A stretch of 38,379 bases of DNA, from positions 1-38,379 of the forward strand of contig NZ_OEZH01000178.1 in the NCBI RefSeq assembly GCF_900243075.1, written 5' to 3'. Below, piece by piece: positions 1,527 to 35,357 of this stretch (within the stretch, counting starts at the first letter, position 1; each line of letters begins with the position of its first letter). The DNA comes from Clostridioides difficile (GTDB lineage: Bacteria > Bacillota > Clostridia > Peptostreptococcales > Peptostreptococcaceae). The position numbers were made by a program, and so were the translations under genes. Under the pieces are notes generated by a model. That model was not told where the DNA came from. It made no database searches and saw only the letters and a program-made list of their open reading frames with translations.

Positions 1527-1538
1527 CTTTTGATAGTC

Positions 1539-1650: not shown

Positions 1651-1812
1651 ATAAGAGAGATATAAAAAGAAAAAGTAAAATGATGTAAATAATATGATAT
1701 GATATAAGATGTAGCAAATTTAGTAAATAATTATTTAAATATCATAATCAAATTAGCAATTTTGCACAATGTAAATATTACAATAAAATAATTGATTTAA
1801 GGAGTGAAGGTT

Positions 1813-4338
1813 TTGAGTGAAAATAATATAATAAGAAACACTGTTTTAAATGTCACAGCAAGTTTTTTAAAACAAGAGTCTAAAATAAATGAAAAATTAG
1901 ATGGTGTTTTGGAAAAGAAATTTGAAAAAGTAGAATTTAATGAAGCAAAATATGCTGAGCTTTTAAAATTTAATATATTGTTTTATAAGACGTTAGCAAG
2001 AAATACAGAACCACTTATTGGCAAATGGATAGTAGATAAGTACATACCTGAAATAGATGAGTTAGAAAAGGATTTAGAATTAACTACAGCAAAATGTAGA
2101 AAGTATGTAAATAAGGCAATGAAAGAAGGATTAGACTCTCTAAAAGCCAATGATTTAAATAGTTTCTTAGCCTACGATAAAATGGAACTATCAGAGAAAA
2201 GAAGACGTTTAGAAAAGGATTATAAGGTTTTAAACCTATATAAAGACCTTCTTAACATATCACTTAGAAAAATAAGTTTAGAAAAGAAAGAATGTGGAAA
2301 TTTATTTCTTAAAAATCAAGCAGATGCTAAAAGAGAATTAAAAAGAGAAATCATATTCTGTGTAAATAAAATATTAGCTAGTAACAAAGATGTAGTACCT
2401 AAGAGTGTGGAAGAAAATAATGAACAAGACAGAGTAGAAATAAAAGCAACAGAAATTGAAGATTTACAATTAGGTAAGGATAATTCAGAAAATGATGTGT
2501 TATTAAGTGAGGTTAAAAATTCAAAAGTAGAACAAGAATCAAAAACAAATGATATAGAATCCAAGTTTATGGATAAGTTAAATAGCTTAAATAATGAAAT
2601 TATATCTCAAACAATACACAATGAATATAAAAAGTTGTGTGGATTAGAAGAACTTCATTCTGTTGAAGGATATGGTTTTGGTAAAGAGGTTATTAAGGAT
2701 TTTGCTTGCGCAACAGTTGCATTAGAATTTTTAAAGAGAAGAAATAGAGACCTTATAGAAGGTGCAATGAGGCTAACTATAATTGGAGAATTTGGTGCTG
2801 AAAATTTTAAGGAATTTGTAGACTATGTAATTAAAAATAAAACAGAAATTAGCGAAGATACTTGGAATGAAGCACATAATCTAATAAAAGATAACTATAA
2901 TGAGTTAGAAAATCATGAGATTGCATCAAAAAGAACTAGAAGAAACAAAGATATAGATATTGAAGAATATATTTATATGATAAAAAATGCAGATAAAGAT
3001 ATTTGTTTTAGAAGTAGTATTTCTATAGAAGATGATGTCGAAGAAGAGACTAACAAAGAAACTACTAGTCATAATGAAAATATAGGTGATGTTGTAGAAG
3101 ATAAAGACAATACAGACAAAGAGTATAATATCAATAAAGAAGATATAATTGAATCAGAAAATAAAAAGAGTAAAAAGAAAGCTAAGTTATTTGGATTTAT
3201 TAAAAAAGATAATTTAGAAGAAGAAATTGAACAAGAAGAAAATAATTTAAATAACATTTCTTCTGATGTAATTTTAGATAAAACTATTGAAAATAATCAA
3301 GAAGAATTAGAAGAAATAAAGCAAGAAGAAGTAAAAGAAGTAAATCAAAAGATAGAGGAAGAACGCAGTGTAAAAATAGAAAAACCAATAAATAACGATT
3401 TAGATGAAAAAGTATTTTTAGATAGTGAACTTAAGCCTGAAAAAGAAAGTAAGAACTTAAAAGAGGAAATAGTAAAAGAAACAAAAGAAGAAAAATTAGA
3501 AAATGAAAAATCAGTAGTAATACCTATTAATAAGAAAGAAAAAGGTAATAAAAAATCTAAACATTCTTCTAAAGACAAGTCTAAAGAACGTAAGACAGAA
3601 ATGAAAAATTATGTATCAGATAAAGATGATTATATAGATGATGAAGAAGTTGTTTCTAAGAAGAGTAGATTGAAAGAAACTATTATAGCAGTAGTTATAG
3701 TAGCGATTGTTGGTGTGGGATACTTTATAACAGTAGGTAATAATAAGAAAAATGATAAAGATGTTGTTCCAAAAACATCAACTCAGCAACAAGCTAACAA
3801 TAAACTAACTGAAGAAGAGAAAAAAGCAAAAGCTGAAAAAGAGAAAAAAGAAGCAGAAGAAAAGGCAAAAGCTGAAAAAGAGGCTCAAGAAAAAGAAAAA
3901 GCTGAAAAGAAGGCAAAGGAAATGGAAGCATATAAAGATGGTAAAGGTGTATATTATACTGTTTATGCAGGTTCACTTAAAGTTGAAAAAACAGCAAAAG
4001 AAACAGCAAAAGAATATGAGGCTAAAGGTATTTCTTCAACAATAATTCAAGAAAATGGGTACTATAAGATAAAGATAGGTGATTATTCTCAATATGGAGA
4101 AGCACAAGAAAAATGTAACGAGCTAGCTAAGAAATCTATTGATACATATATAGCAATGTATGATAAGTACTATGATTATAAATTAGAAGAATTGAAAGAA
4201 TCATCTTCTTCGTTGAGTGCTGAAGAACTTAAACAAAAATATGAAGATTTAAGAAGTGAGTTAAAGAATAAATCTGGATATCGTGAATATGTTAGACATT
4301 TAGATAAACTTTATGAAGAAATAGTTGAAGGTGCTTAG
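1813..4338 (+). CDS. Large bitopic membrane protein with extracytoplasmic SPOR domain
   Basis: The protein has about 841 residues. I prefer TTG at 1813, because AAGGAG (1799-1804) sits 8 bases upstream; a GTG in the same frame at 1804 is inside that ribosome site. The N-terminal half is helical. The region to about residue 620 is extremely Lys/Glu-rich and probably disordered or coiled. One membrane segment lies at about 624-642 (IIAVVIVAIVGVGYFI). A Lys/Glu/Ala coiled stretch follows (about 667-706), then a SPOR-like domain (about 711-785, GVYYTVYAGSL...YYKIKIGDYSQYGEAQ) outside the cell. SPOR domains bind denuded septal peptidoglycan, so a cell-wall or division role is inferred. The very long cytoplasmic region is unusual for SPOR proteins. 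The next two genes, also unrecognised, may be functionally linked. Confidence 0.85.
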   Translation: MSENNIIRNTVLNVTASFLKQESKINEKLDGVLEKKFEKVEFNEAKYAELLKFNILFYKTLARNTEPLIGKWIVDKYIPEIDELEKDLELTTAKCRKYVNKAMKEGLDSLKANDLNSFLAYDKMELSEKRRRLEKDYKVLNLYKDLLNISLRKISLEKKECGNLFLKNQADAKRELKREIIFCVNKILASNKDVVPKSVEENNEQDRVEIKATEIEDLQLGKDNSENDVLLSEVKNSKVEQESKTNDIESKFMDKLNSLNNEIISQTIHNEYKKLCGLEELHSVEGYGFGKEVIKDFACATVALEFLKRRNRDLIEGAMRLTIIGEFGAENFKEFVDYVIKNKTEISEDTWNEAHNLIKDNYNELENHEIASKRTRRNKDIDIEEYIYMIKNADKDICFRSSISIEDDVEEETNKETTSHNENIGDVVEDKDNTDKEYNINKEDIIESENKKSKKKAKLFGFIKKDNLEEEIEQEENNLNNISSDVILDKTIENNQEELEEIKQEEVKEVNQKIEEERSVKIEKPINNDLDEKVFLDSELKPEKESKNLKEEIVKETKEEKLENEKSVVIPINKKEKGNKKSKHSSKDKSKERKTEMKNYVSDKDDYIDDEEVVSKKSRLKETIIAVVIVAIVGVGYFITVGNNKKNDKDVVPKTSTQQQANNKLTEEEKKAKAEKEKKEAEEKAKAEKEAQEKEKAEKKAKEMEAYKDGKGVYYTVYAGSLKVEKTAKETAKEYEAKGISSTIIQENGYYKIKIGDYSQYGEAQEKCNELAKKSIDTYIAMYDKYYDYKLEELKESSSSLSAEELKQKYEDLRSELKNKSGYREYVRHLDKLYEEIVEGA

Positions 4339-4461: not shown

Positions 4462-6453
4462 ATGTTGAAATTAGGAGAAAAAATTATATATGAGCTTTCA
4501 GATGGATTTGAGCTTAGTGGTATCAGTAGATACTCAAAAGAATATAAAAAACTTCATATAACAAATTTAGGTAATATAATAATTAGCAAATCAGATGAAG
4601 TTAATAGTGATACAGGAGTAAAATATATATATAGTTTTTCAGATAATAAAGAAAAGTTAGAAGCAGTTTTAGAAGGTTCTCAAATAATTATCTATGGAAA
4701 TAACTTGCCTTTTTACATAAAAAGTGAAAATTCAAGTAAGAATATCACAGCAAATTTAACCATGAAAATAACTTTGGATGAATATGATTTAATCTGCAAA
4801 AACCAAAGAGAATTTATATTTTGTATAAAAGATAATATGACTATATTAAGTTTAGATGACAATAAGTTTTATATGGGTGGAATCAATAAGGATAATGAGA
4901 AGTTCATATTTATCAGTGGGAAAAATAGATTTGAAATAAACTTTGATGATATAGAAAGATATATTTTAGAAGATAAAAGAGTCTCTTTAAAGGGATATTT
5001 TCATATGGAAAGAGAAGGGATTATAGTAAGGTCTGTGTCTATATTTAATAACAATATAGAGAATGTAGTTCCATCTGATTTAAATGAGAGGGTTAAAGAT
5101 AATAAAAAAATAGGAAACCTTCCTAAAGATTGTGATATAGTGTTCTGTAAGATATCAGGAAATATAGATGGATTTGATTATAAAAATACAAACATGCTTT
5201 TAGTAAAATATCAAGACCAATTAATTTTTATAAACAAGAAATCTAAGAAGACTATTGTAAGGTCAGAAAAAGATAATTGTTCAAAGTTAAATTTGGGAGA
5301 AGATATTATATTATATGATAATAAAAATGTATTTAACCTACATATAAATGATAAAAATAGAGAAATTATGCAAATAGATGATTTGAAAGACATAGAAAAT
5401 GAAGTAGTAGGATATACATTAAAACATGCTCCATTTTTTATTCAAGAAGATTTCTATAGTCTGACTATTCTAAAGTCTTTTCAAAAAGAAATCATATCTA
5501 TAAAAAATAGTGATGTAAAAGATATTGTAATTAATAAAGAACTTGAAAACGAAAATTCTAAATTTGTAGAAACAGAAATAAAATTTAATAATCAAAAAAT
5601 AGTTTTAAATCTAAGTAAAAATATGGTTCAAAAACTTATGCAAGATGTCTTTATATATGCAAAACAACCTCTACTTAAAGAGAATTCTATTGAAGTGATA
5701 TATAAGAATTGGTCTAAAGCCATGAATGATATGATAATATTTAATTTCTTTGGAAATATTTATTATATGAAATCTGAATTTGATAAGGTTCTAGAAAAAG
5801 AATTAAATGATGAAATAAGAATTGAAGTTATAAATTCACTTTATAAGCAAGTACAAGAACAAAGAAATAATTTAGATTTATTATCAGCATATATGCCAAG
5901 AATATTAGAAAATCAAGACATAGATTTGTTTGAAAAGTATAATGTTAAACTTGATGTACAAGTATTTAAGCAGATTAAAAATTTAATGTCTGATTTATCT
6001 TATAATATAAGTAGTTATTTAAATGAAGTTGAAAAAAGTCTAGATAATATCATATTTGTAATTTCAGGGGAAGATAAGAAGAAATACAATTATAGAATGT
6101 TAAAGGAAAGTGAAAGTGCAAGTCTTGATGTATTTTTAAAACAAGCTATATCGAGATTAAACCATTTAGTAGAAAATATGTATCCTTATTATGTAGATGA
6201 AACTAGTAGAGAAATGTTTAAGTTATTTGAGCTATTATGGAAAAACTATAAAAATATTGATGATGATAGTATAAAAGATATATTATTCGAAAGAATAACA
6301 AATACATATGTATTTAAACAATTGACATTAAATAATAGTACAAATGAAAGAAGAAAAGACATAATTGAAAAAATATATAATTCTGTTGATTATGGAACCA
6401 ATAAACTAGATGAAAATATGTTTTTCACAGGAGGAATAAAGTATGTCAAGTAA
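4462..6453 (+). CDS. Hypothetical protein, 663 aa
   Basis: I do not recognise a family. The ATG at 4462 follows GGTGGTGAAGG. There is no signal peptide and no membrane segment, so it should be cytoplasmic. The first ~370 residues look like repeated beta-rich units with alternating Lys/Ile/Phe strands, for example KLHITNLGNIIISKS and EFIFCIKDNMTILSLDDNKF. The last ~290 residues are helical and charged. It overlaps the next gene by 11 bases, so the two are translationally coupled. Its position right after the SPOR-domain membrane protein suggests a shared envelope-related role, but that is inference only. Confidence 0.8.
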   Translation: MLKLGEKIIYELSDGFELSGISRYSKEYKKLHITNLGNIIISKSDEVNSDTGVKYIYSFSDNKEKLEAVLEGSQIIIYGNNLPFYIKSENSSKNITANLTMKITLDEYDLICKNQREFIFCIKDNMTILSLDDNKFYMGGINKDNEKFIFISGKNRFEINFDDIERYILEDKRVSLKGYFHMEREGIIVRSVSIFNNNIENVVPSDLNERVKDNKKIGNLPKDCDIVFCKISGNIDGFDYKNTNMLLVKYQDQLIFINKKSKKTIVRSEKDNCSKLNLGEDIILYDNKNVFNLHINDKNREIMQIDDLKDIENEVVGYTLKHAPFFIQEDFYSLTILKSFQKEIISIKNSDVKDIVINKELENENSKFVETEIKFNNQKIVLNLSKNMVQKLMQDVFIYAKQPLLKENSIEVIYKNWSKAMNDMIIFNFFGNIYYMKSEFDKVLEKELNDEIRIEVINSLYKQVQEQRNNLDLLSAYMPRILENQDIDLFEKYNVKLDVQVFKQIKNLMSDLSYNISSYLNEVEKSLDNIIFVISGEDKKKYNYRMLKESESASLDVFLKQAISRLNHLVENMYPYYVDETSREMFKLFELLWKNYKNIDDDSIKDILFERITNTYVFKQLTLNNSTNERRKDIIEKIYNSVDYGTNKLDENMFFTGGIKYVK

Positions 6454-8937: not shown

Positions 8938-8979
8938 TAGACACATGTAGTAATGTTTCTAAAAGAGGGGGAAGTTATA

Positions 8980-10914
8980 GTGAAAAAAAGTCTAAAAAAG
9001 TATTTAGTACTGGTATTGACTTTAGTTTTAGTATTTGCATGTGGCGTACCAGAATCAACTGCAGCTAGTAAGCATGTGATTATAGTAAACTCAAGAAAAA
9101 ACACTCTAGGATACTTTGTAAATAGTAAGCTTGTAAGAGAATTTAAAGTTGCGACAGGGAAAAAAGGTTCAGAAACACCAACAGGAAAAACAAGAGTGGT
9201 TAACAAGATAAAAAATAGACCATATTACAAAGGAAATATACCTGGAGGAAGCCCAAGAAATCCATTAGGAGATAGATGGATGGGATTAGCATTAAAAGGA
9301 ACTTATGGAGATACATATGGAATACATGGAAATAATAATGAAAGTTCTATAGGAAAGCATATTTCTGGTGGATGTATAAGAATGCATAATAAAGAAGTTA
9401 GATGGTTATTCGACCAAGTTCCTGTGGGTTCAGATGTAATTATAGATTATAGTAATGACAGTTATATAAAGATAGCAGCAAAATATAAGATAAATTTAAA
9501 CCAAACAGGTTGGAAGACTGAAAATGGTAAGAAGTATTATGTAAAATCTGATGGAACATACCAAAAGAATAGTTGGTTAAAAATAAATGGAAAAATGTAT
9601 TATTTTAATGCTTCAGGAGTAATGCAAACAGGATGGCAAACAATTAATAACAAAAAATACTATTTAGGAACTGATGGAGCAAGGGTATCTGGATGGAAGG
9701 AAGTAGATGGAAAGACTTATTACTTTAATTCAGATGGAGTAATGCAAACAGGATGGCAAGAAAAAAATGGAAAGAAATGCTATCTAGGAGCTGATGGTTT
9801 ATCAGTAATAGGATGGCAAGAAATAGATGGTAACAAGTATTACTTTGACAAAACAGGAGTAATGCAGACAGGATGGCAACAAATAGAAGGAAAATCTTAC
9901 TATTTAGACAAAGATGGCAAGATGTTAAATGGCACTCAAAAAATAGAGGGAAAAGATTATACTTTCAATGAAGATGGAACTATAAATCCTACATGGGACA
10001 CAATTATAGGAGCAAATAGATTTGATACAGCTAAGAAAGTAAGTTCAGTTGGAAACTGGAATGCAGATAGTTCAGATACTGTAATATTAGTAAATGGTAA
10101 TGCAATAGCAGATGGTATAACAGCAACACCTTTAGCAAGTAGTTATAATTCAACAATATTACTTACTAATACAGATAAATTACCAACTGAGACTGTTGAA
10201 GAAATGAAGCTATTAGCACCTAAAACAGTAATCTTGATAGGTGGAGAAAATGCAATAAGTTCTAAATTAGAACAAGAAATAAAGACTAATTTCAACACAG
10301 AAACAAAGAGAATAGCGGGTCAAGATAGATATCAAACTGCTATAAGAATAGCTAAAGAACTTGGAAGTAGAGAAGAAATAAAAACAGCTTATATGGTTTC
10401 TGGAAATGGAGAAGCAGATGCTCTATCTATAGCTTCTAAAGCTGGAGAAGAAAAGCAACCTATAATATTAGTTAAAAAAGATGGAATTACAGAAGAGTCT
10501 TATGCATGGCTAACAGAAAGAAAATTAGAAAATGCATATTTTATAGGTGGTCCAAGTGCAATTAGTGATTCAGCAATAGTAAAAATGAATGAGATAACTA
10601 CTGAAGATATTTCAGGAAATAGAATATATGGAGATAGTAGAGTCGATACTAATGCTAAAGTAATAGAAAAATTCTATGGAGATACTGATTTACAGGCTAT
10701 ATTAGTTAGTAAATCAGATGCTTTAGTAGATGCCTTATCAGCTGGACCATTAGCTGTAAAATTACATTCACCAATAATTTTAATGGATAATTCAGGATTA
10801 TCATCAGAGCAACAAAGAGTATTTGCAAATAAAAAAGTTGAAACTCCTTATCAAATAGGAGGAGGAGTATCTTATGTAGTTATGGATAAATTAATAGATA
10901 TTCTTGGAAAATAA
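8980..10914 (+). CDS. cwp22: Secreted L,D-transpeptidase with CWB2 cell-wall anchor (Cwp22 type)
   Basis: The protein has 644 aa from GTG 8980, preceded by AGAGGGGG; an in-frame ATG at 8953 lies upstream of that ribosome site. A signal peptide (about 1-29, ending STAAS) exports it. A YkuD L,D-transpeptidase domain follows (about 32-157), with His116 and the catalytic Cys132 in SIGKHISGGCIRM. It makes 3-3 peptidoglycan cross-links. Then come about eight GW...YYF choline-binding-like repeats (about 176-338), closely like the C. difficile toxin CROP repeats. Three CWB2 repeats (about 341-644, starting IIGANRFDTA) bind secondary wall polymer. This order matches C. difficile Cwp22, also called Ldt-Cd2. 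L,D-cross-linking bypasses penicillin-binding proteins and is dominant in this species (family knowledge). Confidence 0.95.
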   Translation: MKKSLKKYLVLVLTLVLVFACGVPESTAASKHVIIVNSRKNTLGYFVNSKLVREFKVATGKKGSETPTGKTRVVNKIKNRPYYKGNIPGGSPRNPLGDRWMGLALKGTYGDTYGIHGNNNESSIGKHISGGCIRMHNKEVRWLFDQVPVGSDVIIDYSNDSYIKIAAKYKINLNQTGWKTENGKKYYVKSDGTYQKNSWLKINGKMYYFNASGVMQTGWQTINNKKYYLGTDGARVSGWKEVDGKTYYFNSDGVMQTGWQEKNGKKCYLGADGLSVIGWQEIDGNKYYFDKTGVMQTGWQQIEGKSYYLDKDGKMLNGTQKIEGKDYTFNEDGTINPTWDTIIGANRFDTAKKVSSVGNWNADSSDTVILVNGNAIADGITATPLASSYNSTILLTNTDKLPTETVEEMKLLAPKTVILIGGENAISSKLEQEIKTNFNTETKRIAGQDRYQTAIRIAKELGSREEIKTAYMVSGNGEADALSIASKAGEEKQPIILVKKDGITEESYAWLTERKLENAYFIGGPSAISDSAIVKMNEITTEDISGNRIYGDSRVDTNAKVIEKFYGDTDLQAILVSKSDALVDALSAGPLAVKLHSPIILMDNSGLSSEQQRVFANKKVETPYQIGGGVSYVVMDKLIDILGK

Positions 10915-11932: not shown

Positions 11933-11938
11933 ATAGGA

Positions 11939-11967
11939 TTGACAAATTTTAAAAAATTTGTTATAAT
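11939..11967 (+). promoter_or_regulatory. Perfect consensus sigma-A promoter for a small RNA
   Basis: TTGACA (11939-11944), exactly 17 nt, then TATAAT (11962-11967). It starts right after the DUF3800 stop codon and no protein gene lies downstream on this strand before the terminator at 12055. Confidence 0.85.
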
Positions 11968-11973
11968 GTAAAT

Positions 11974-12085
11974 AATCTAGTTATTCAGGAACTGGATTCA
12001 GTTGCTGTTGTATAACGATAATTACTGAGACTCGGATGCCGACTGTCAGTTAGGAATCTATACTTTTAAAAGTATAGATTTTTTT
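11974..12085 (+). ncRNA. Candidate stand-alone small RNA (~110 nt)
   Basis: The predicted transcript runs from the perfect promoter to a strong terminator and has no reading frame with a ribosome site. Hairpin 1 is CAG-AACTG (11986-11994) with CAGTT-CTG (11999-12007). Hairpin 2 is ACTGA (12024-12028) with TCAGT (12046-12050), closed by CGG/CCG (12033-12035 and 12039-12041). The terminator palindrome is at 12055-12080, followed by seven Ts. I do not recognise an RNA family: it lacks the marks of 6S, SRP RNA, tmRNA or common riboswitches. A trans-acting sRNA is the simplest guess. Confidence 0.7.
12055..12085 (+). terminator. Terminator of the small RNA
   Basis: A perfect 26-base palindrome with arms AATCTATACTTTT (12055-12067) and AAAAGTATAGATT (12068-12080), then a T7 run. 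Confidence 0.9.
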
Positions 12086-12105
12086 ATTTTATAAAAAGAA
12101 TAAAA

Positions 12106-12222
12106 GGGCTGTCTCAAAATAGAGATTGTACTGAACCCCAATTGTTGAAATGATGAAAATATATTTGATTTCATACAAAAAAGAGTGCCTCATGAACTAA
12201 AAGGTTCATTTTGATACACCCT
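12106..12222. mobile_element. Short IS-derived or MITE-like remnant
   Basis: The left arm GGCTGTCTCAAAAT (12107-12120) matches the inverted right arm ATTTTGATACACCC (12208-12221) at 12 of 14 positions. Inside the left end, TGTACTGAACCCCAATTG resembles IS3-group left ends and aligns loosely with the sequence after 38294. There is no transposase. Its right part (about 12178-12227) also forms a bulged hairpin followed by T6 on the minus strand, and so probably ends the LysR transcript. Confidence 0.55.
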
Positions 12223-12235
12223 CTTTATTAATAAA

Positions 12236-13117
12236 TTATAGTTGTGCGTTTTTAATGACGAAGTTTTTAAAGTTTTTAATTGCAGGAGGCAAATATCTAT
12301 CTTTCATAAATGCTAAGTAAAAATTTCTTTCCCAACTTGGGTAAACAATTTGAATTACTTTCACTTTTGTAAAGTTGAGCATATGCATATTTGGCACTAT
12401 AGCAATTCCGAAATTTTTTGCAACCAATCCAGCAATTACTTGGTCTTCTTCCACTTCATAAACTATGTTAGGTTGTTGATTTATTTTTTTAAACATATCA
12501 TCAATTATATATCTAAGCCCACTTCTTTGATTAAATACTATTTGAGGATAGGGTATTGTCTCTTTTAAATCTATAGTATCTTTTGCAGCTAATGGGTGAC
12601 TGTATGGTACAATTAATACTAAATCCTGTTTAGAAACAGGTATAAATTCAATTCCTTTTTCTTTTTCAAGTTTTGAGCAAAATGCAATATCGTACTTTCT
12701 TTCCTTAAGACCTTGAATAATGTCGGTAGTTACACCTGTATGAAATTTAAAATCTATTGACTTTTCAGGATTAGATTTTAAAAATTTATGTACTATATCG
12801 GGTATAAAATCAGTACCAAGTGTTCTAAGAAAAGCTAAGTCTATTTGACCTTCACCAGTACCCGTTATTTTTAATGATTTTACACTTGAATCTAAGATTT
12901 CCAGTGATTTTTCCACATCTTTTAAAAATATTTTCCCATATTTAGTAAGTACTATATTTCTACCTTCCTTTTCAAATAGAGACACTCCAAGTTCACTTTC
13001 TAACAAAGAAATAGCATGACTTAAGCTTGGCTGTGTTATAGATAAATTTTCTGCTGCTTTTGTATAGTGTTCTAAATGTGCTAATGTAACAAAATAGCGT
13101 AAGTGATATAAATTCAA
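12236..13117 (-). CDS. LysR-type transcriptional regulator (QuiR-like by context)
   Basis: 293 aa. The N-terminal winged helix-turn-helix is intact (about 1-60: LRYFVTLAHLEHYTKAAENL, then ITQPSLSHAISLLESELG). The rest is a periplasmic-binding-like effector domain (about 90-290). The start is TTG at 13117, with AAAGGATG upstream. It is divergent from the shikimate/quinate-type cluster with a 370-bp intergenic region, the classic arrangement for a LysR activator of the neighbouring operon. The likely inducer is a hydroaromatic acid such as shikimate or quinate, inferred from the neighbours and from the similar order in the Listeria qui2 locus. Confidence 0.9.
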   Translation of the reverse strand: MNLYHLRYFVTLAHLEHYTKAAENLSITQPSLSHAISLLESELGVSLFEKEGRNIVLTKYGKIFLKDVEKSLEILDSSVKSLKITGTGEGQIDLAFLRTLGTDFIPDIVHKFLKSNPEKSIDFKFHTGVTTDIIQGLKERKYDIAFCSKLEKEKGIEFIPVSKQDLVLIVPYSHPLAAKDTIDLKETIPYPQIVFNQRSGLRYIIDDMFKKINQQPNIVYEVEEDQVIAGLVAKNFGIAIVPNMHMLNFTKVKVIQIVYPSWERNFYLAFMKDRYLPPAIKNFKNFVIKNAQL

Positions 13118-13487
13118 TTTTTGTTCATCCTTTCATGGGTATCCTTATTTTTATTATATATGATTATATAGTAAGAATAAAAGCTTTTAAAAAATTTTAT
13201 CGTTTTTTGTCTTAATTATAAGATAAAAGCATTTATATGATGTATTGAAAAAATATAAAAATTTTTATATCAGTAAAATCTATAAATAAAATCTATGAAT
13301 TGATAGGAAATTATCAATTTGTTATTAACAAAGTCTCATGATACAATAAATTTATAAAATCTAGATAAAGACAAATCAAAAAATACTTTTGTTTTTAAAG
13401 TAAAATAATACTACTAGTAGGATAAATAAAATAAAAATTAAAAAATGCTATTATTTATAAAGAAAATAAAGGGGGCAAAATTAAATT
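13118..13487. promoter_or_regulatory. Divergent control region between LysR gene and the hydroaromatic operon
   Basis: A plus-strand promoter TTGTTA (13319-13324), 17 nt, TACAAT (13342-13347) gives a leader of about 135 nt. An 8-bp perfect inverted repeat AATTGATA (13298-13305) / TATCAATT (13312-13319) abuts and touches the -35, a typical LysR activation site. A second palindrome, CTACTAGTAG (13411-13420), lies in the leader. AT-rich ATAAAAGC repeats near 13180 and 13223 may be further regulator sites. Confidence 0.6.
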
Positions 13488-14336
13488 ATGAATAATCAAA
13501 AAAATCTTAATATTCCAATTACAATTAGTTCTTATACATTGGGAACAGAAGTTTCATTTCGTGATAGAGTATGTATTGCAAAAGAAGCTGGATTTGATGG
13601 TATTGGATTACGTGCTGAAAATTATGTTGATGCAAAAAAAGCTGGTGTTACAGATGAAGAGATGCTTGCAATTCTTAATGAATACGATATGAAAGTTACA
13701 GAAGTAGAATATATAACTCAATGGGGAACAGAAGAAGATAGAACTGATGCTCAAAGAGAAAAAGAGCAAAATGTTTATCATATGGCTCGTTTATTTAATG
13801 TTAAACATATAAATTGTGGATTATTAGAAATGATACCAGAAGAACAAATTATAACTGCATTGGGAGAATTATGTGACAGAGCAGGTGAGCTTATTATAGG
13901 TCTTGAGTTTATGCCATATAGTGGTGTGCCTGACTTGGCTACTGCATGGCGTGTTGTGAAAGGATGTAATCGTAAGAATGCAATGCTTATATTGGATACT
14001 TGGCACTGGGCTAGAGCAAAACAGACAGCAGAGGACCTTGCACCTGTTCCAGCAGATAAGATAGTATCAATTCAAGTGTGTGATGTTTTAGAAACTCCTT
14101 ATGAAAAACTTAGAGATGAATCACTACATGACCGTTTGGCTCCAGGTGAAGGATATGGAAACACAGAGGAATTTGTGAAAATAATAAAAGAACACAATAT
14201 ATCACCAAGAGTTATAGGAGCAGAAGTAATATCTGATTCTCTAATAGATAAAGGATTATCTACTGCTGCTGAAACTGTATTTAATGCTACCAAAAAAGTT
14301 TTAAATAGAGCATGGCCTGAAGTATCTCCAAAATAA
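13488..14336 (+). CDS. Sugar-phosphate isomerase-like TIM barrel, probable 3-dehydroshikimate dehydratase
   Basis: A 282-aa protein of the xylose-isomerase-like/AP-endonuclease-2 fold. Candidate metal ligands are Glu140 (IGLEFMPY), Asp170 (LILDTWHW), Gln196 (VSIQVCD) and Glu246 (VIGAEVIS). This Glu-Asp-Gln-Glu pattern and its spacing resemble bacterial QuiC-type dehydroshikimate dehydratases, which make protocatechuate. The general family also contains sugar epimerases, so the exact reaction is inference from the neighbouring dehydrogenase and regulator. The ATG at 13488 is preceded at somewhat long distance by AAGGGGG. It is the first gene of the operon and uses CGT for Arg repeatedly. Confidence 0.75.
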
Positions 14337-14414
14337 ACTTATATAATATTAAAATATACAAAGTATGATAATATAAAAATTTTAAATATGAAATTTGAAA
14401 GGAAGGAAAACCTT

Positions 14415-16337
14415 ATGAAGATTAGTTCTATGTTTACACCTATAAAAGTTGGTTCAATGACAGTTCCAAATCGTTTTGTAGTTCCTCCTATGGGAAACAA
14501 TTTTGCAAACACAGATGGTACTTTAAGTGAAACTTCTAAGGCTTATTATCTTGAACGTGCTTTAGGTGGTTTTGGATTGATAACTATAGAATCTAGTGTT
14601 GTAGATAAAAAAGCAAAAGGAGGACCTCGTAAGCCTTGTTTATATGATGATAGTACAATAGATAGTTTTAAAAATGTAATAGATGCTTGTCATGATGCAG
14701 GTTCGAAGGTATCTATACAATTGCAACATGCTGGTTCTGAAGGAAATGAAAAAATAGCAGGTCATCCATTGAAAGCGGCTTCTGCAATACCCGCATCAAA
14801 TGGTCGTAATACACCATTAGAAATAACAACTGAAGAAATATATGAACTTATAGAATCTTATGGTGATGCTGCATTACGTGCACAAAAAGCTGGTGCAGAT
14901 GCCGTTGAAGTTCATTGTGCTCATGGATATCTGGTTAGTAGTTTTATATCACAAAGAACAAATAAGCGTGTAGATGAGTTTGGTGGATGCTTTGAAAATA
15001 GAATGAGATTACCTCGTCTTATTATTGAAAATATACGTAAAAAAGTAGGAAATTCTCTAGCGATATTATGTCGTATAAATAGCACAGATGATGTCCTAGG
15101 AGGAATTGATGTACATGATAGTTCAGTAATAGCAGTATATCTAGAAGAGTGTGGAGTAGATGGACTTCATGTTTCACGTAGTATACATATACATGATGAA
15201 TATATGTGGGCTCCTACGGCTTTACATGCTGGATTCAGTGCAGATTTAGTTACTGAAATAAAAAAGGCTGTTAGTATACCAGTAATAACAGTTGGACGTT
15301 ACACAGAACCACAGTTTGCTGAGTTAATGGTTAGACAAGGAAGATGTGATTTAGTAGCATTTGGTAGACAAAGTTTGGCTGACCCAGAAATGCCTAATAA
15401 AGCTAAAAATGGAAAGCTAGATGAAATGATACCATGTATTGCATGCTTACAAGGATGTGTACCAAATATGTTCCAAGGTAAACCTATAGCCTGTCTTGCA
15501 AATCCTATATTAGGTCATGAAGCAGAACTTAAGCCAGCCAAAATTAGTAAAGAAGTTCTTGTTATTGGTGGAGGCGTTGGAGGTATGCTTTCAGCATGGG
15601 TGTGTGCTAAAAGAGGTCATAATGTGACTTTAGTCGAAAAATCTGAGGTTCTTGGTGGTCAAATGCGCTTAGCTGCATATCCTCCTGGTAAGGGAGATAT
15701 TACCAATTTAGTTAGAAGTTATATTTCAAAATGTAATCAATATGGTGTGAACATATGTATTAATACGGAGGCTACAGCAGAATTTATAAAAGAAAAATCA
15801 CCTGATGCAGTTATTATAGCTACTGGAGCAACTCCGCTTGTACTTCCTATACCAGGAATCAATGATTCAGGATTAATACATGCTGTAGACCTTCTTGATG
15901 GTAAAAAATCTTGTGGGAAAAAAGTGCTTGTTGTTGGTGGTGGAATGGTTGGATGTGAAGTAGCAGCTTTCCTTGGAGAACAAGAACATGAGGTTACTGT
16001 TATTGAGCTTAGAGAAGAAGTTGGTGCAGATGTAATTTCAGAACACCGCAAATTCCTTATGAATGATTTTGAAAATTATAATATACATACTGTTACTGGT
16101 GCAAAAGTTGCTAAATTTTATGATGATGGTGTAGACTATTTACTTGCAGATGGTACAGAACATGATTTAAAAGGCTTTGATTCAGTAGTACTTGCTATGG
16201 GTTCTCGTAATTACGACCCATTAAGTGAAGTTGTAAAAGAATTTGTAAAAGAAACCCATGTTGTTGGCGACGCAGTAAAAGCTCGTAGAGCACTAGATGC
16301 AACAAAAGAAGCTTTTGAAGTAGCATTAAATATATAG
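14415..16337 (+). CDS. NADH:flavin oxidoreductase, OYE/2,4-dienoyl-CoA reductase family
   Basis: About 640 aa from the ATG at 14415; GAAAGGAAGG sits just upstream, while an in-frame ATG at 14388 lacks a site. An FMN-binding TIM barrel (about 1-335) contains VHCAHGYL (167-172) and VGRYTEPQ. Four Cys at 341, 344, 348 and 360 (CxxCxxxC then C) bind a 4Fe-4S cluster. Two dinucleotide folds follow: VIGGGVGG near 383-390 and VVGGGMVG near 503. Such enzymes reduce activated C=C bonds using NAD(P)H. In this operon the substrate could be a hydroaromatic or enoate formed from shikimate. The Listeria qui2 locus has an equivalent gene. Confidence 0.85.
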   Translation: MKISSMFTPIKVGSMTVPNRFVVPPMGNNFANTDGTLSETSKAYYLERALGGFGLITIESSVVDKKAKGGPRKPCLYDDSTIDSFKNVIDACHDAGSKVSIQLQHAGSEGNEKIAGHPLKAASAIPASNGRNTPLEITTEEIYELIESYGDAALRAQKAGADAVEVHCAHGYLVSSFISQRTNKRVDEFGGCFENRMRLPRLIIENIRKKVGNSLAILCRINSTDDVLGGIDVHDSSVIAVYLEECGVDGLHVSRSIHIHDEYMWAPTALHAGFSADLVTEIKKAVSIPVITVGRYTEPQFAELMVRQGRCDLVAFGRQSLADPEMPNKAKNGKLDEMIPCIACLQGCVPNMFQGKPIACLANPILGHEAELKPAKISKEVLVIGGGVGGMLSAWVCAKRGHNVTLVEKSEVLGGQMRLAAYPPGKGDITNLVRSYISKCNQYGVNICINTEATAEFIKEKSPDAVIIATGATPLVLPIPGINDSGLIHAVDLLDGKKSCGKKVLVVGGGMVGCEVAAFLGEQEHEVTVIELREEVGADVISEHRKFLMNDFENYNIHTVTGAKVAKFYDDGVDYLLADGTEHDLKGFDSVVLAMGSRNYDPLSEVVKEFVKETHVVGDAVKARRALDATKEAFEVALNI

Positions 16338-16350
16338 ATAATAAATAAAT

Positions 16351-16391
16351 TTTTCTTTGCAAATAACCGAATAGTTTATTTGCAAAGAAAA
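16351..16391 (+). repeat. Intercistronic hairpin, 16-bp perfect stem
   Basis: TTTTCTTTGCAAATAA (16351-16366) pairs perfectly with TTATTTGCAAAGAAAA (16376-16391) across a 9-base loop. No T run follows on the plus strand, so it is more likely an mRNA-stabilising or processing element than a terminator. Confidence 0.75.
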
Positions 16392-16418
16392 TGATAATAT
16401 TGGGAGGAAATTATAGTT

Positions 16419-17282
16419 ATGGAAATTTCAGGTAGAACAGGATTATTTGCATTAATAGGTACACCAGTTGGTCACTCTAAATCACCAGTGATGTATAATT
16501 ATAGTTTTGAAAAATTAGATTTAGATTATAGATATTTAGCTTTTGATATTACAGTAGACAAAGTAAAAGAGGCACTTTCAGCAATAAAAACTTTTAATAT
16601 AAAAGGGGCCAATGTTACTATGCCATGTAAATCTGCTGTTACAGAATACATGGATGAACTTTCTCCAGCAGCTCGTATAATTGGAGCATGTAATACAATT
16701 GTAAATGACAATGGGAAATTAGTTGGTCATATAACAGATGGAGTAGGTTATGTTCGTAATTTAAAAGAAAATGGAGTAGAAGTTAAAGGCAAAAAGATTA
16801 CAATTATGGGTGCTGGTGGTGCAGCAACTGCTATACAAGTACAATGTGCATTGGATGGAGCAAGAGAAATATCTATCTTCAATACTAAGGATGATTTTTA
16901 TAAAAGAGCAGAACAAACAGTTGAGAATATAAAGAAAGAAGTACCAGAATGTATTGTTAATTTATATGATTTAGAAGATATAGACAAACTTTATGAAGAG
17001 ATAGAATCAAGTGATATATTGACAAATGCAACTCTTATTGGTATGAAACCTTATGATAATGAAACTAATATAAAAGATGTTAGCATTTTAAGAAAAGAGC
17101 TGGTAGTAACAGATGTTGTTTATAATCCAAAGAAAACAAAAATGATTGAAGATGCTGAAGCTAATGGATGTAAGGCTATTGGTGGATTGGGGATGTTATT
17201 ATACCAAGGTGCAGAAGCTTTCAATCTATATACTGGCTTAGAAATGCCTGTAGAAGAGATTAAGGAATTGTGTTTTAAATAG
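16419..17282 (+). CDS. aroE: Shikimate/quinate dehydrogenase
   Basis: 287 aa. Interconverts 3-dehydroshikimate and shikimate (or 3-dehydroquinate and quinate). Substrate residues are visible: Ser20 and Ser22 in GHSKSP, Lys71 in NVTMPCK, Asn92 and Asp107 in ITDG. The nucleotide site is GAGGAAT (131-137). The loop after beta-2 reads IFNTKDDFY, closer to the YdiB-type FNRRDEF than to the NADP-specific NRT of biosynthetic AroE. A catabolic or dual quinate/shikimate role is therefore likely. ATG 16419 follows GGGAGG. It sits between the flavin reductase and an MFS transporter, not in a biosynthetic aro operon. Confidence 0.9.
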   Translation: MEISGRTGLFALIGTPVGHSKSPVMYNYSFEKLDLDYRYLAFDITVDKVKEALSAIKTFNIKGANVTMPCKSAVTEYMDELSPAARIIGACNTIVNDNGKLVGHITDGVGYVRNLKENGVEVKGKKITIMGAGGAATAIQVQCALDGAREISIFNTKDDFYKRAEQTVENIKKEVPECIVNLYDLEDIDKLYEEIESSDILTNATLIGMKPYDNETNIKDVSILRKELVVTDVVYNPKKTKMIEDAEANGCKAIGGLGMLLYQGAEAFNLYTGLEMPVEEIKELCFK

Positions 17283-17357
17283 ATATAAAAGCTATAACTT
17301 AAGCAATGGAAAAATATACGTATTTAAATGTTTTAATAACAATTTACAAATTGTCGT

Positions 17358-17417
17358 AGTGGGTTTTGTATCATAGTCTAGTTAAATTTAAAGGTTTAAC
17401 TATACTTTAAACCCATT
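17358..17417 (+). repeat. Long hairpin in the 196-bp gap before the MFS gene
   Basis: The outer arms AGTGGGTTT (about 17359-17367) and AAACCCATT (17409-17417) enclose a second stem of AGTCTAGTTAAA (about 17375-17386) with TTTAACTATACT (17395-17406). It could be a processing site or attenuator that sets transporter expression relative to the enzymes. There is no T run. Confidence 0.6.
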
Positions 17418-17478
17418 ATGGGGATAAGTTTATTGTAGATAAAGACGTTAATAAATTAACAAGAATAGGAGAAGAATT

Positions 17479-18696
17479 ATGAACAATAAAAAATATTATC
17501 CTACTGCCATAGCGTTGTATTTTTCATATTTTTTACTTGGTATTGGAATTTCAATTTTAGGACAATATAAACCAGAGTTTTCATCAATGTGGGGAGCAAA
17601 AACACTATCAGATGGGACTTTAGATGTAAGTATTGTTTTAGCGGTTATTGCCGCGTTAGGATTAGGCAGACTTATATCGTATCCATTTGCAGGACCTATT
17701 TCAGATAAGTATGGAAGAAAGGTAAGTGGGCTTATAGGAAATTTTCTACATGCAATTTTCTTTATTGGAATTGTATTTTCACCAAATTTTTATATAGCAT
17801 ATATATTTGCAATAATTGGAGGAGCTGCAAACTCATTTTTAGATACTTGTGTAACTCCTTCTTGTATGGAGATATTTGCTGGTTTGGGAACAATAGCAAA
17901 TATGTTTACTAAATTTACAATAGCTTTAGCGCAATTTTTACTTCCTTTTATAATTGGATTTGTTGCAACAAGTTCAATATCATTTAAAGTTATTTTTATA
18001 GTAACAGCTATTCTTATTATCATAGATGCAATTTTGATAGCTGTATTACCATTTCCACCAGCTAATAATGTTATTGACAATAAAGGAAAAACTGTTAAAT
18101 CAGAAAAGATGAAATTTACACCAACAAGTATAGCTCTTGTTTGTATAGGATTTACATGTACATCTACATTTGTATTATGGTTAAACTGTAATCAGGAATT
18201 GGGTAAATTATATGGTATGGCTGACCCTACAAAAATTCAATCTTTTTACTCAATGGGAGTAATATGTGCAGTATTAATAACTTCTGTACTTATTAAAAAA
18301 TATATCAAACCAATAAGAATACTTGTTATATATCCTGTAATAGCTTTGATTATGTTATTAGTTGTATATTTTGTTCAAACTCCAACTATTTGTATGTTAG
18401 GTGGATTTGTAATAGGTTATTCAGCAGCAGGTGGTGTTCTTCAGTTAACAACATCAACAGCAAATGAAATGTTTCCAACTAATAAAGGAAAAATAACATC
18501 TATAGTTATGATTGCATCTAGTATAGCAAACTATGTTATTTTAAATATAGCAGGGATTATTACGAAGTCAGGAGGAGTGAATGGTCCAAAATATGTTGTA
18601 TTATTTAATGTGGCTATAACTTTTGTTGGAATTTTACTTGCATTGTTTGTAAACATGAGATATGGAAAAGAGAAAGTGTATGATTATAGTGTTTAA
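17479..18696 (+). CDS. MFS transporter, probable shikimate/quinate importer
   Basis: 405 aa with about 12 hydrophobic membrane segments. The signature between helices 2 and 3 is present (GPISDKYGRKVSG, after GLGRLISYPFA). The ATG at 17479 is preceded by AGGAGAAG. The family is certain. The substrate is inferred: it lies between a shikimate dehydrogenase and a shikimate kinase fusion, so hydroaromatic acid uptake is the natural guess. An export role cannot be excluded. Confidence 0.85.
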   Translation: MNNKKYYPTAIALYFSYFLLGIGISILGQYKPEFSSMWGAKTLSDGTLDVSIVLAVIAALGLGRLISYPFAGPISDKYGRKVSGLIGNFLHAIFFIGIVFSPNFYIAYIFAIIGGAANSFLDTCVTPSCMEIFAGLGTIANMFTKFTIALAQFLLPFIIGFVATSSISFKVIFIVTAILIIIDAILIAVLPFPPANNVIDNKGKTVKSEKMKFTPTSIALVCIGFTCTSTFVLWLNCNQELGKLYGMADPTKIQSFYSMGVICAVLITSVLIKKYIKPIRILVIYPVIALIMLLVVYFVQTPTICMLGGFVIGYSAAGGVLQLTTSTANEMFPTNKGKITSIVMIASSIANYVILNIAGIITKSGGVNGPKYVVLFNVAITFVGILLALFVNMRYGKEKVYDYSV

Positions 18697-18759
18697 TATT
18701 AGTATAATATAATTGTAAGGATTTTTTATTTTGTCTAGTTTGAAAGTTGAGGTGTCACT

Positions 18760-19554
18760 ATGGAAAATATAGAAAAGATAAGAGAAAAAATAGATTTATA
18801 TGATGATGAGCTTATAGGTTTACTCGAAAAAAGAATGGAATGTATAAAAGAGATTATAGATATTAAAAAAGAAAAAGGTTTAGCTATTTTACAATCAGAT
18901 TATGAAAATAAAAAAGAAGTGGCATTGATTAAGAAATTAAATGATAATAAATTTGAAAATGAAATTATAGACATTTTTAGATATGTAGTTAAAACTAGTA
19001 AGAAAATACAGGCTAAAAGTTTATTCTCTTATAATATAATGCTTGTTGGATTTATGGGTGTTGGTAAAAGTACTATATCGTCATACTTAAGCCATTTATT
19101 GGAAATGGAACGAATAGAAACAGATTCATATATAGTAAAACAACAAGGAATGAGTATCTCTGACATATTTGAAAAACTAGGAGAAGAGTATTTTAGAAAT
19201 CTTGAAAGTCAAGTAATAATAGACCTACAACAAAAGACAGGTCTTGTTGTTTCCTGTGGGGGAGGAATTGTACTTCGAGATAAAAATGTAGAGTATATGA
19301 AAAAGAGTGGAAGGATTGTTTTGTTGACAGCAAGTCCAGAAACTATTCTTCAGCGTGTTAAACACAGTGATGAAAGACCAATACTTAACAATAATATGAA
19401 TGTAGAATTTATAGCTGACCTAATGAAAAAACGAGAAGCAAAATATATGGCATCTGCGGATATTATTATCAATACAGATAATAAGACAATAAAAGAAATT
19501 TGTGAAGAAATGATTGTGAAATTAACTGAATTTGATAGAGAAGTTCAAATTTAG
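18760..19554 (+). CDS. Chorismate mutase-shikimate kinase fusion
   Basis: 264 aa. Residues 1-85 are an AroQ-type chorismate mutase: Arg8, Arg25, Lys36 and Glu49 fall at the spacing of the known active-site residues of the E. coli enzyme. Residues about 91-260 are shikimate kinase: P-loop GFMGVGKST (97-105), Asp122 in ETDSYI, Arg146, the GGG at 167-169, and DERPIL. The kinase would phosphorylate imported shikimate and pass it to aromatic amino acid synthesis; the mutase acts three steps later. The ATG at 18760 follows GAGGTG. It is the last gene before a terminator and seems part of the hydroaromatic operon. Confidence 0.9.
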   Translation: MENIEKIREKIDLYDDELIGLLEKRMECIKEIIDIKKEKGLAILQSDYENKKEVALIKKLNDNKFENEIIDIFRYVVKTSKKIQAKSLFSYNIMLVGFMGVGKSTISSYLSHLLEMERIETDSYIVKQQGMSISDIFEKLGEEYFRNLESQVIIDLQQKTGLVVSCGGGIVLRDKNVEYMKKSGRIVLLTASPETILQRVKHSDERPILNNNMNVEFIADLMKKREAKYMASADIIINTDNKTIKEICEEMIVKLTEFDREVQI

Positions 19555-19646: not shown

Positions 19647-19685
19647 AATATTACTAGAATTTTAAATTCTAGTAATATTTTTTTG
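19647..19685 (+). terminator. Terminator of the hydroaromatic operon
   Basis: A near-perfect palindrome with arms AATATTACTAGAATTT (19647-19662) and AAATTCTAGTAATATT (19664-19679), then TTTTTT. Confidence 0.85.
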
Positions 19686-19758: not shown

Positions 19759-21624
19759 GTGGATAATGTCTTTAATCAATTGCAGGAAATTAAGGGTTAT
19801 GATGGATACAAAGAATCATTTGAAATGAATTACCTATGTATATATGAAAATATACCTTTAAGAGAACAAGTAGAGCTTGCAAATAATCTAGTAGATAGAA
19901 TTTTAAATATGTATAAAAATGAATCTAATGAAATTTATTTGTTTGAGAATAATAATTCTAAACCTCTAATTTGCTATTTTGAAATTTTTATGAAAAAGAT
20001 AAATACTTTAGTGAAAGAAATGATAATTGATGAGAAATGGTTATATAAATTAACTAAAGAATTAATATATAAAAGTAAAAAAGTTGAGTATGTAAAACTT
20101 GGGCTAGTCTTAAGTGAGAAATATCTAGATGTAGAAAATTTAAGAGAAGTTGTGGATACATTTTCTAAATCTGGAGAATACATATTTTATTTGAGCAATA
20201 CTATTAAAAGGCTTAAACTTTACAATACATATTTATTTAATTTATCTAAGAAGGCTACAGGTTCAATAAAAGTATTTGCTATTGTTAATATGGAAAATTT
20301 AGATTCTAAAATAAATTCTTATTTAATTGAAAATGGCTATAAAGATAGGAAATATGAACGATTATTGATGAATTACATTATTTCTATTATAGATTTGCAT
20401 AAATATCTTGAAAGAAGAGATTTAGATAAAGAAAAGATAAATAACTTAGCACATCTTATATGTAACTACTTATTAAGTGTGGAATTTAGATACATAGGAA
20501 ATAAAGTAGAATTAGTAAACCTATTTTTACCAATTGTAGTGAATTATGGGACTAACTTTGAAAGTTTATATTCGATTTTCTTAATAGCTATAAACGTCTT
20601 GAAAGATGAAAATATAGAGTGCAATAAAGTTGAGTTTGAAAAAGAAATAAATGATATATTACTTAGTGAAAAATGGAAAAGTATATATTTTAAAGCATTA
20701 AAAGAGGCTAGAGGAAAAACAGAAGATATGATACGGATGTCAGAAATTTATGATGTGAACTTATCTTTCGATGATTTGTTGCCGTATTTGAATAGAGACA
20801 TTAGAGATTTTGAGGTATATTGGCATATATCCAAAAAGGGAGTGACAAGTTCTAGGTTAAAATTATTAAATTTTTTTGAAAAGACATTTAAAATAGATGA
20901 TTTAACTGGAAAAATGGAAGATATAGAAAAAGATAAATTAACCCAAGAATATTATGATGATATGTTATTTTTTATTGTGCTTAAAGGAAGTAAATCACTA
21001 TATCCTGAAGGAAAGAATATATCTTTAAAAGGAATCTTTGGAAATATAAATGAAGTAAGAAAAGAATCCATAAATATTTTAAAAAGATATAGAGAGAAAT
21101 TATCTCTCGAAGAATTAAAAGTAGTTAAAGAAGCCTATGAAAAAGAAAAAAATATCCTATTGAAAGATGAATTGAGAAGAGTATTATATGAAAGTAATAA
21201 TTTAAAGAAAGAATTTGTAAATATTGAAAAAATAAAAGTAGATGAACATGGTAAAGATATCTATTTGACTTCAATAGCTGTTGCTGGTTCAAGGTTCAGA
21301 AATAGAGAATGTCTTGAAAAAGAATTAGAGAAGAGTAAGATATACTATCTAACTAGAGAGAAAGATAATTTATACGATGAAAATGCTATTAAAATAGTTG
21401 GAGAAACTGGATATGTAATAGGTTATGTTGCAAGAAAAGATAATTATATTTTGAGCAATTTATTAGATGGAGGAAAACTATTATATTGTAGAGTAACTGA
21501 ATATAATTTATATGAAGACTGTATCTATGCAAATGTGTATTTGAGTTATAAAGATGTAATTGAAACGGTTGAAAACTCTCTAAAGATGGTTTTAGATAAG
21601 AGCAAAATGAAACTTATAAACTAA
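19759..21624 (+). CDS. Hypothetical protein with C-terminal HIRAN domain
   Basis: 621 aa from GTG 19759, with AAAGGAGG 8 bases upstream. Residues 1 to about 490 are helical and charged with no recognised family. Residues about 494-604 look like a HIRAN domain: IAVAGSRFRNRE, REKDNLYDENAIKIV, GYVIGYVARKDNYILSNLL. HIRAN domains bind DNA ends or stalled forks and usually accompany SNF2 helicases or nucleases; here no helicase motif is present. A DNA-damage-associated role is plausible but unproven. It is a single-gene unit. Confidence 0.8.
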   Translation: MDNVFNQLQEIKGYDGYKESFEMNYLCIYENIPLREQVELANNLVDRILNMYKNESNEIYLFENNNSKPLICYFEIFMKKINTLVKEMIIDEKWLYKLTKELIYKSKKVEYVKLGLVLSEKYLDVENLREVVDTFSKSGEYIFYLSNTIKRLKLYNTYLFNLSKKATGSIKVFAIVNMENLDSKINSYLIENGYKDRKYERLLMNYIISIIDLHKYLERRDLDKEKINNLAHLICNYLLSVEFRYIGNKVELVNLFLPIVVNYGTNFESLYSIFLIAINVLKDENIECNKVEFEKEINDILLSEKWKSIYFKALKEARGKTEDMIRMSEIYDVNLSFDDLLPYLNRDIRDFEVYWHISKKGVTSSRLKLLNFFEKTFKIDDLTGKMEDIEKDKLTQEYYDDMLFFIVLKGSKSLYPEGKNISLKGIFGNINEVRKESINILKRYREKLSLEELKVVKEAYEKEKNILLKDELRRVLYESNNLKKEFVNIEKIKVDEHGKDIYLTSIAVAGSRFRNRECLEKELEKSKIYYLTREKDNLYDENAIKIVGETGYVIGYVARKDNYILSNLLDGGKLLYCRVTEYNLYEDCIYANVYLSYKDVIETVENSLKMVLDKSKMKLIN

Positions 21625-24692: not shown

Positions 24693-24706
24693 CAAAGTTG
24701 ACATTC

Positions 24707-24778
24707 TATTCATAGAAAACCCATTTACGGTGGATTTGTAGAAACTACTAGACCATATTACTAATATTATATGAACAT
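24707..24778 (-). ncRNA. Purine riboswitch, guanine class
   Basis: Minus strand, upstream of the permease. All conserved parts are present: P1 TTCATA/TATGAA, the core ATAAT, P2 TATTAG/CTAGTA with the AATATGG loop, the GTTTCTAC junction, P3 AAATCC/GGGTTT with the loop ACCGTAAAT, and the closing CTATGAA. The ligand-pairing base just before TATG is C, which specifies guanine or hypoxanthine rather than adenine (family knowledge). Ligand binding would stabilise P1, free the terminator and switch transcription off. Confidence 0.93.
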
Positions 24779-24800
24779 TTTCTATTTGTTTTTCTGTTGT

Positions 24801-35034: not shown

Positions 35035-35357
35035 TAAATAGAAAACATAAGAGAGCTAAATTTTATTGAATTAAACTCTTAAAGACTTTGAAAGGAAGAG
35101 TAGTTATAGAATGTAATTAAAGCGAGTTGGTGATGGTGTGAGACCAATATGAAGTCTATAATGAAGAACATCCTGGAGTTGCTAACCGAAATTTTAAAAG
35201 AGTAGGCTTAGTCGGAACCAAACCGTTATCATATTGGGATGTATCGAGTAATATCTGTACATTATGAGCTGGGTTTGAATTTATTTCAGACTAATCAGGG
35301 TGGTACCGCGGAAAAGCAACCTTTCGTCCCTTTTATATAGGGATGAAGGGTTTTTTT
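35035..35357 (+). ncRNA. T-box riboswitch, probably Asn-specific
   Basis: The leader has the AGGGTGGTACCGCG T-box (35297-35310), which pairs with uncharged tRNA. A terminator follows: AACCTTTCGTCCC (35318-35330) with GGGATGAAGGGTT (35340-35352) and T7. Stem I covers about 35050-35200. The specifier is most likely AAC (Asn) in ATGAAGAACATCC near 35165-35172, which matches the downstream asparagine synthetase. Uncharged tRNA-Asn would favour antitermination and switch asnA on. Confidence 0.92.

Follow-up and report, generated by a model that had tools for sequence, protein, structure and literature searches.

Our analysis of a contig from Clostridioides difficile (NZ_OEZH01000178.1 of assembly GCF_900243075.1; 38,379 nucleotides, here called the window) indicates, with a probability of roughly 60%, that positions 12236 to 19554 harbor a LysR-controlled hydroaromatic locus that is centered on shikimate and, in the genes that it contains and in their order, orthologous to the Listeria Lmo2234 locus. 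In the branch model that we propose, a transporter of the major facilitator superfamily (MFS) would import shikimate, and shikimate (or dehydroshikimate) would activate the LysR protein at a box near 13298-13319. A shikimate dehydrogenase (SDH) of the nicotinamide adenine dinucleotide (NAD) type would then oxidize shikimate to 3-dehydroshikimate, for which two fates would compete: dehydration to protocatechuate by a triosephosphate isomerase (TIM) barrel protein, and reduction of the C=C bond by an old yellow enzyme (OYE)-type protein with Fe-S and flavin adenine dinucleotide (FAD) centers. Because the latter step would reoxidize NADH, the pathway would be redox balanced for an anaerobe. A chorismate mutase-shikimate kinase (CM-SK) fusion would serve as an optional outlet, phosphorylating shikimate towards chorismate. 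What the sequences show is which genes and domains are present, which residues are conserved, the synteny, and a terminator; every substrate, the inducer, the transport direction, and the branch ratio we infer.

All six genes are present as open reading frames, each with a Pfam match above the curated cut-off, in agreement with the initial annotation of this region, which had placed a LysR gene divergent from genes for a TIM barrel protein, an OYE reductase, an SDH, an MFS transporter, and a kinase. The LysR-type regulator, a relative of QuiR, lies on the minus strand (12236-13117; HTH_1 and LysR_substrate). The plus strand harbors genes for a xylose-isomerase-like TIM barrel of the Listeria Lmo2234 type (13488-14336), an OYE-type reductase with flavin mononucleotide (FMN), 4Fe-4S, and FAD (14388-16337; Oxidored_FMN and Pyr_redox_2), the SDH (16419-17282), the MFS transporter (17479-18696), and the CM-SK fusion (18760-19554; CM_2 and SKI). 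An intrinsic terminator with a 16-bp A+T-rich stem and a T run follows the kinase gene at approximately 19647-19683 and is also found in genomes G004 and G010; it is invisible to a pattern scan that demands G-C pairs in the stem. The genes may be expressed as a single transcript. Since the order LysR-TIM-OYE-SDH-MFS is repeated in other Clostridioides genomes, in other Clostridia, and in Listeria, it is not due to chance. Our reading draws its support, at the level of sequence, from collinearity with the Listeria locus L190, from the QuiR-type LysR protein, and from the co-occurrence of TIM, LysR, SDH, MFS, and OYE genes. Nine proteins of the contig are 88 to 97% identical to those of C. difficile records L003, L004, and L048.

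The SDH exceeds the cut-off of the NCBIfam model NF009200 (542.7 versus 432 bits), and its Lys-Asp pair (K71 and D107) is invariant in 8 of 8 sequences. It is related to YdiB, with a score below the cut-off of the YdiB equivalog model NF009390 (297.7 versus 349). Only two SDH matches were found in this genome, the copy in the window and one on contig C179, where matches to AroB, AroC, a chorismate mutase (CM) domain, SDH, and shikimate kinase (SK) lie side by side; the SDH and SK of the window are therefore second copies. The motif STRKKG of the biosynthetic SDH is replaced by NTKDDF in the window copy, and because Asp stands where the former has basic residues, the protein is predicted to be an NAD-type shikimate/quinate dehydrogenase. 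The initial annotation had named quinate alongside shikimate. There is no 3-dehydroquinate dehydratase in the locus, and the sole type I match of the genome is on contig C7 (type II was not searched), which makes the quinate route less direct than that from shikimate. The AroD of C. difficile is an enzyme already studied, as seen in passages of PMC3931744.

The best PDB match of the LysR protein is 5ted_B, Lmo0488 of Listeria (E value of 4e-52), which passages of PMC11602165, PMC9973260, and PMC7837296 enter as QuiR with bound shikimate. This agrees with the earlier statement on a Listeria LysR protein that responds to shikimate, but QuiR belongs to another Listeria locus, of the OYE-B/SDH/AroD type. 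Of the 102 residues of the solved QuiR piece that were compared, 102 are identical to the LysR protein of that locus (L192), while 51 of 101 are identical to the LysR protein of L190. The LysR protein of the window is itself 64% identical to that of L190 and 49% identical to QuiR. In the gap between the LysR and TIM genes, an inverted repeat at 13298-13319 has 8-bp arms and a 6-bp spacer, the size of a LysR box, and is a candidate for the recognition site. Six of 7 Clostridioides upstream regions carry it unchanged and that of G004 has a single mismatch; arms of 7 to 8 bp are found at the matching place in loci L007, L008, L154, and L155. Counting against the candidate, Clostridium magnum and loci L051, L046, L148, L149, and L152 gave no match to the exact core, and it occurs once each at other places in L151 and L076. 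The box sequence is not among the inverted repeats of the LysR-TIM gap of L190.

The cargo of the MFS protein can be judged from genomic context only, and it is a candidate shikimate importer. It matches Pfam MFS_1 and is 68% identical to the MFS protein of L190, with no NCBIfam model over its cut-off. The SDH-MFS gap (17283-17478, plus strand) harbors a predicted RNA hairpin at 17340-17435 that is more stable than shuffled sequences (fold z score of -3.4). Its pairing is largely kept in 7 Clostridioides sequences, with a two-sided change in only 1 of 41 pairs, and no known RNA family was found in the gap at the gathering threshold.

We compared 96 loci, consisting of the window, 79 loci from a scan of genome contigs, and 16 loci chosen by hand; near-duplicates (L143, L144, L145, and L150), a second L. 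salivarius plasmid (L194), short refetched loci, and the other contigs of the window's genome were excluded. The set is biased, since loci entered it through their similarity to SDH or TIM; moreover, seven of its entries represent one genus. With a threshold of at least 45% identity, 29 loci harbor the TIM barrel, and these include LysR (28 loci), SDH (28 loci), MFS (28 loci), the window-type OYE (23 loci), the QuiR-locus-type OYE (11 loci), an FAD/FMN reductase (2 loci), a short-chain dehydrogenase/reductase (SDR; 5 loci), AroD (9 loci), and an SK-type match (14 loci). Among genomes, a TIM barrel of more than 50% identity was found in 12 of 71 of the bacterial family, in 3 of 398 of the phylum sample (the window's own included), and in 2 of 398 of the class sample. 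These counts do not bear out a widespread module; the module is scattered rather than common. Besides the window's own genome, no TIM match above 60% was present in the phylum and class samples, and Listeria was not seen there. The Listeria locus L190 was found in the plasmid collection PLSDB, in which NZ_CP030101.1, a 2.9-Mb, chromosome-size record, is filed as a plasmid.

The OYE protein harbors the motifs HxxHxY (at residue 176) and CX2CX3CX11C (at residue 350). Because many relatives begin level with residue 10, translation may instead begin at the internal ATG at 14415. Membership of the BaiCD family of bile-acid flavoenzymes was considered and rejected, the score of 535.4 bits being under the cut-off of 825. 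The substrates of BaiCD are enones, and 3-dehydroshikimate is also an enone. We consider the protein a candidate 3-dehydroshikimate C=C reductase, and this is the least documented step of the scheme. Two loci of C. magnum (L005/L006) have several tandem copies of the module on one contig, with LysR, OYE-B, MFS, and SDH genes repeated. In NZ_OP378649.1 of Klebsiella pneumoniae (L193, filed as a plasmid), genes for an OYE-B-like protein, SDH, MFS, AroD, and LysR are grouped adjoining leu genes.

An OYE-family or flavin C=C-reductase-like gene is present in 33 of 36 loci with both LysR (at least 35% identity) and SDH. This raises the possibility that the locus is mainly a reductive electron sink, in which shikimate or quinate from plant food would be the electron acceptor, OYE and a ketone reductase would yield reduced cyclohexane carboxylates, and the TIM barrel would be a minor side route. 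Such loci of L. salivarius and of an Aerococcus metagenome-assembled genome (MAG) lack OYE and harbor in its place a different flavin reductase, a FAD_binding_2/FMN_bind protein, together with an SDR; the L. salivarius protein matches a flavocytochrome c model below the cut-off of that model. Lactobacilli reduce quinate and shikimate. On the other hand, three of the LysR and SDH loci (L045, L156, and L157) have no C=C reductase by the same test, and the cassette retains the TIM barrel, whose slot was seemingly refilled by another lineage's version, so that the protein seems to matter. We regard the electron sink as a serious but tentative alternative. Extended to gut clostridia including the C. 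difficile group, it would mean that dietary shikimate and quinate are used as anaerobic electron acceptors: SDH would produce dehydroshikimate, a BaiCD-like OYE (or an unrelated flavin reductase, as in certain lactic acid bacteria) would reduce the ring double bond, and a single regulated branch point would have the TIM barrel as its oxidative outlet and CM-SK as its anabolic outlet. This general proposal we hold to be possible and no firmer than the alternative from which it derives.

Another possibility is a purely oxidative protocatechuate pathway to which OYE is unrelated or accessory. In the TIM barrel, residues E140, D170, Q196, and E246 show no variation among the relatives aligned (11 of 11). 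The first three ligand positions are E, D, and Q as in 5hmq, which we take to be QuiC1, while IolI, a fold neighbor, has His at the third; the fourth falls outside the 5hmq alignment. The TIM barrel fold itself is supported by a model and by structural alignments (16% identity with 5hmq and 15% with 3dx5), and the same fold is common to isomerases and epimerases. With the NCBIfam QuiC equivalog, a model built for a 635-residue protein, the score is 23.7 bits versus a cut-off of 1200. Of the QuiC-like metal ligands that the initial annotation had noted, the invariant residues are thus confirmed, whereas the curated QuiC cut-off is not passed. We consider the protein a candidate 3-dehydroshikimate dehydratase. 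These metal ligands favor an exclusively oxidative route, as do the title of the Listeria QuiR paper and the passages that cite the QuiR work. Such a route would leave NADH to be reoxidized elsewhere in an anaerobe and would leave the recurring reductase unexplained, and we judge it unlikely, somewhat more so than the electron sink.

The initial annotation had assigned the last gene to a kinase that phosphorylates shikimate. The SKI domain (residues 99 to 255; 157.5 bits, cut-off of 22.1) has the P-loop, GGG, and RP motifs of SK, in agreement with this, but the protein has a second domain that had been missed, a CM_2 domain (residues 7 to 84; 52.5 bits, cut-off of 27). At the position occupied by Arg in the DREE motif of the second CM found in this genome, presumably among the active-site residues that count, the CM domain has Tyr, and no aligned full-length fusion has Arg there. 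Full-length fusions are also present in I. bartlettii, a Eubacteriaceae MAG, E. aggregans, and three uncultured Lachnospiraceae loci. The initial pathway reading as a whole is partly supported: synteny with Listeria and the relation of LysR to QuiR are borne out, and the points to be amended are the missed fusion, the placement of QuiR in another locus, the absence of AroD from the locus, and the QuiC score.

The kinase brings with it a further alternative, that the main role of the locus is to channel external shikimate into chorismate via CM-SK or another SK. The 14 SK-type matches among the 29 TIM loci (11 without the 34 to 36% matches of L148, L149, and L153, which lie beside biosynthetic genes) point in this direction. 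G013, G867, and G869 have no full-length SK match besides the fusion (there is no completeness figure for G867 and G869), and G067 and G068 have none besides an unfused SK in the locus. AroB was nevertheless matched in 25 of 26 genomes, 24 of them above the cut-off (partial in G867, none in G791), and chorismate synthase also in 25 of 26 (none in G868); shikimate dependence through loss of the early pathway is thereby rejected as the general meaning of the locus. The sole genome that fits such dependence is G791, listed as 100% complete, in which a LysR-TIM-SDR-MFS-SDH module, SK, and chorismate synthase lie on one contig (C41, of which L156 covers 50000-69000). It is a candidate shikimate auxotroph by its gene content, and salvage may be relevant there. 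For the window, salvage is improbable: the Listeria locus and G004 lack CM-SK, a normal SK is encoded elsewhere in the window's genome, and OYE and the TIM barrel would not be needed. Least probable of all is that the substrate of the cassette is a different cyclic polyol acid or cyclitol and its proteins merely resemble shikimate enzymes, for although IolI is a fold neighbor of the TIM barrel and the MFS cargo is judged from context, two shikimate-family enzymes (SDH and SK) are present in the window and AroD is present in 9 of the 29 TIM loci.

With the branched shikimate locus as our preferred reading, the gene trees suggest a composite history. In the TIM tree, Clostridioides groups with Listeria alone (support of 100/100, branch of 0.85). 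In the SDH tree it groups with I. bartlettii, G067, and G068 (100/99), members of its bacterial family. The OYE tree joins Listeria to C. magnum and C. ljungdahlii (94/96). The relation of Clostridioides to Listeria is left unsettled by the LysR tree. Because the TIM and SDH trees contrast, a Listeria-type lineage probably supplied the gene now in the TIM slot, as a replacement in place; alternatively, two old TIM types may have undergone different sorting. Both types have identical residues at the four ligand positions. Within Clostridioides, the TIM barrel is present in 7 of 8 genomes and CM-SK in 6 of those 7. G004 has no CM-SK gene beyond some 20 recognizable bases of the 3' end. G010 does not have the cassette, the gap running from approximately 12098 to 19463, but it retains the final 90 or so bases of the CM-SK gene. 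As remnants persist, these cases are read as loss, that is, as two separate deletions (CM-SK only in G004, the whole cassette in G010) from an ancestral Clostridioides locus. A mobile island was also considered and is rejected: no integrase or transposase was found among the 20 window proteins run against Pfam, and the remnants in G004 and G010 indicate loss.

Other features of the window include a candidate small RNA at 11938-12090 (plus strand), between a DUF3800 gene and the LysR gene, with a terminator hairpin, a fold z score of -4.8, and a promoter-like site that agrees with the consensus at 12 of 12 bases. It is found at 90 to 98% identity in the 7 other Clostridioides genomes, including G010, which lacks the cassette, and was not found in 3 other family genomes searched. 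RNase P RNA lies at 1193-1527 (plus strand), a purine riboswitch at 24693-24794 (minus strand) upstream of a xanthine/uracil-family permease gene, and a T-box at 35079-35334 (plus strand) upstream of the gene at 35384. The protein encoded at 8953-10914 combines YkuD transpeptidase, choline-binding repeat, and CWB2 cell-wall domains; the 621-residue protein encoded at 19759-21624 has only a C-terminal HIRAN domain recognized; and the long proteins encoded at 1804-4338 and 4462-6453 have no Pfam match at 1e-10.

For the C. difficile group and several commensals, these results define genes with which hydroaromatic use can be tested, name an ene-reductase as a likely reductive step, and tie the CM-SK fusion to such loci. 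The initial annotation had supposed the pathway to be undescribed for this organism; among open-license titles and passages of PMC10588857 and PMC3931744, we found no account of it for C. difficile. If the electron-acceptor reading is true, it would supply genes by which hydroaromatics are converted in the gut to reduced cyclohexane carboxylates, and a real reductive branch would link a plant-rich diet to the redox balance of gut Firmicutes. If that branch is not real, the locus would be a Listeria-type protocatechuate locus in another genus.

Among known systems, the closest is the Lmo2234-type locus of Listeria monocytogenes (L190), the synteny of which had been noted in the initial annotation and is confirmed here. 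The LysR gene is likewise divergent from TIM-OYE-SDH-MFS genes in the same order, with identities of 64% (LysR), 73% (TIM), 72% (OYE), 66% (SDH), and 68% (MFS). It differs in that a second MFS gene (30% identical) comes next and CM-SK is absent. The Listeria QuiR locus (L192; LysR, OYE-B, SDH, and AroD), the LysR protein of which is that of PDB entry 5TED, is more distant: LysR is 49% and SDH 54% identical to the window proteins, OYE only 34%, AroD is included, and neither a TIM barrel nor an MFS gene is beside it. Its AroD is 56% identical to the AroD of the window's genome, in which no second QuiR-type locus was seen, the two SDH matches being those in the window and on C179. On the Ligilactobacillus salivarius megaplasmid pLS2102-15_1 (L191), LysR, TIM, and SDH are 41%, 53%, and 48% identical to those of the window, but an SDR and an FMN/FAD reductase replace OYE and AroD is present; the same gene order is annotated in L. 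salivarius pMP118 (L194). QuiC and AsbF share with the window TIM barrel the fold and, in the case of 5hmq, E, D, and Q at three ligand positions, but they differ in the low identity (5hmq for QuiC, 3dx5 for AsbF) and in the QuiC model score given above. In the ydiM/ydiN-ydiB-aroD region of Escherichia coli, an MFS gene likewise lies beside a quinate/shikimate dehydrogenase gene, but the passages of PMC10588857 that describe it mention no TIM barrel or OYE, and the fusions reported there join YdiM, and not a kinase, to chorismate mutase.

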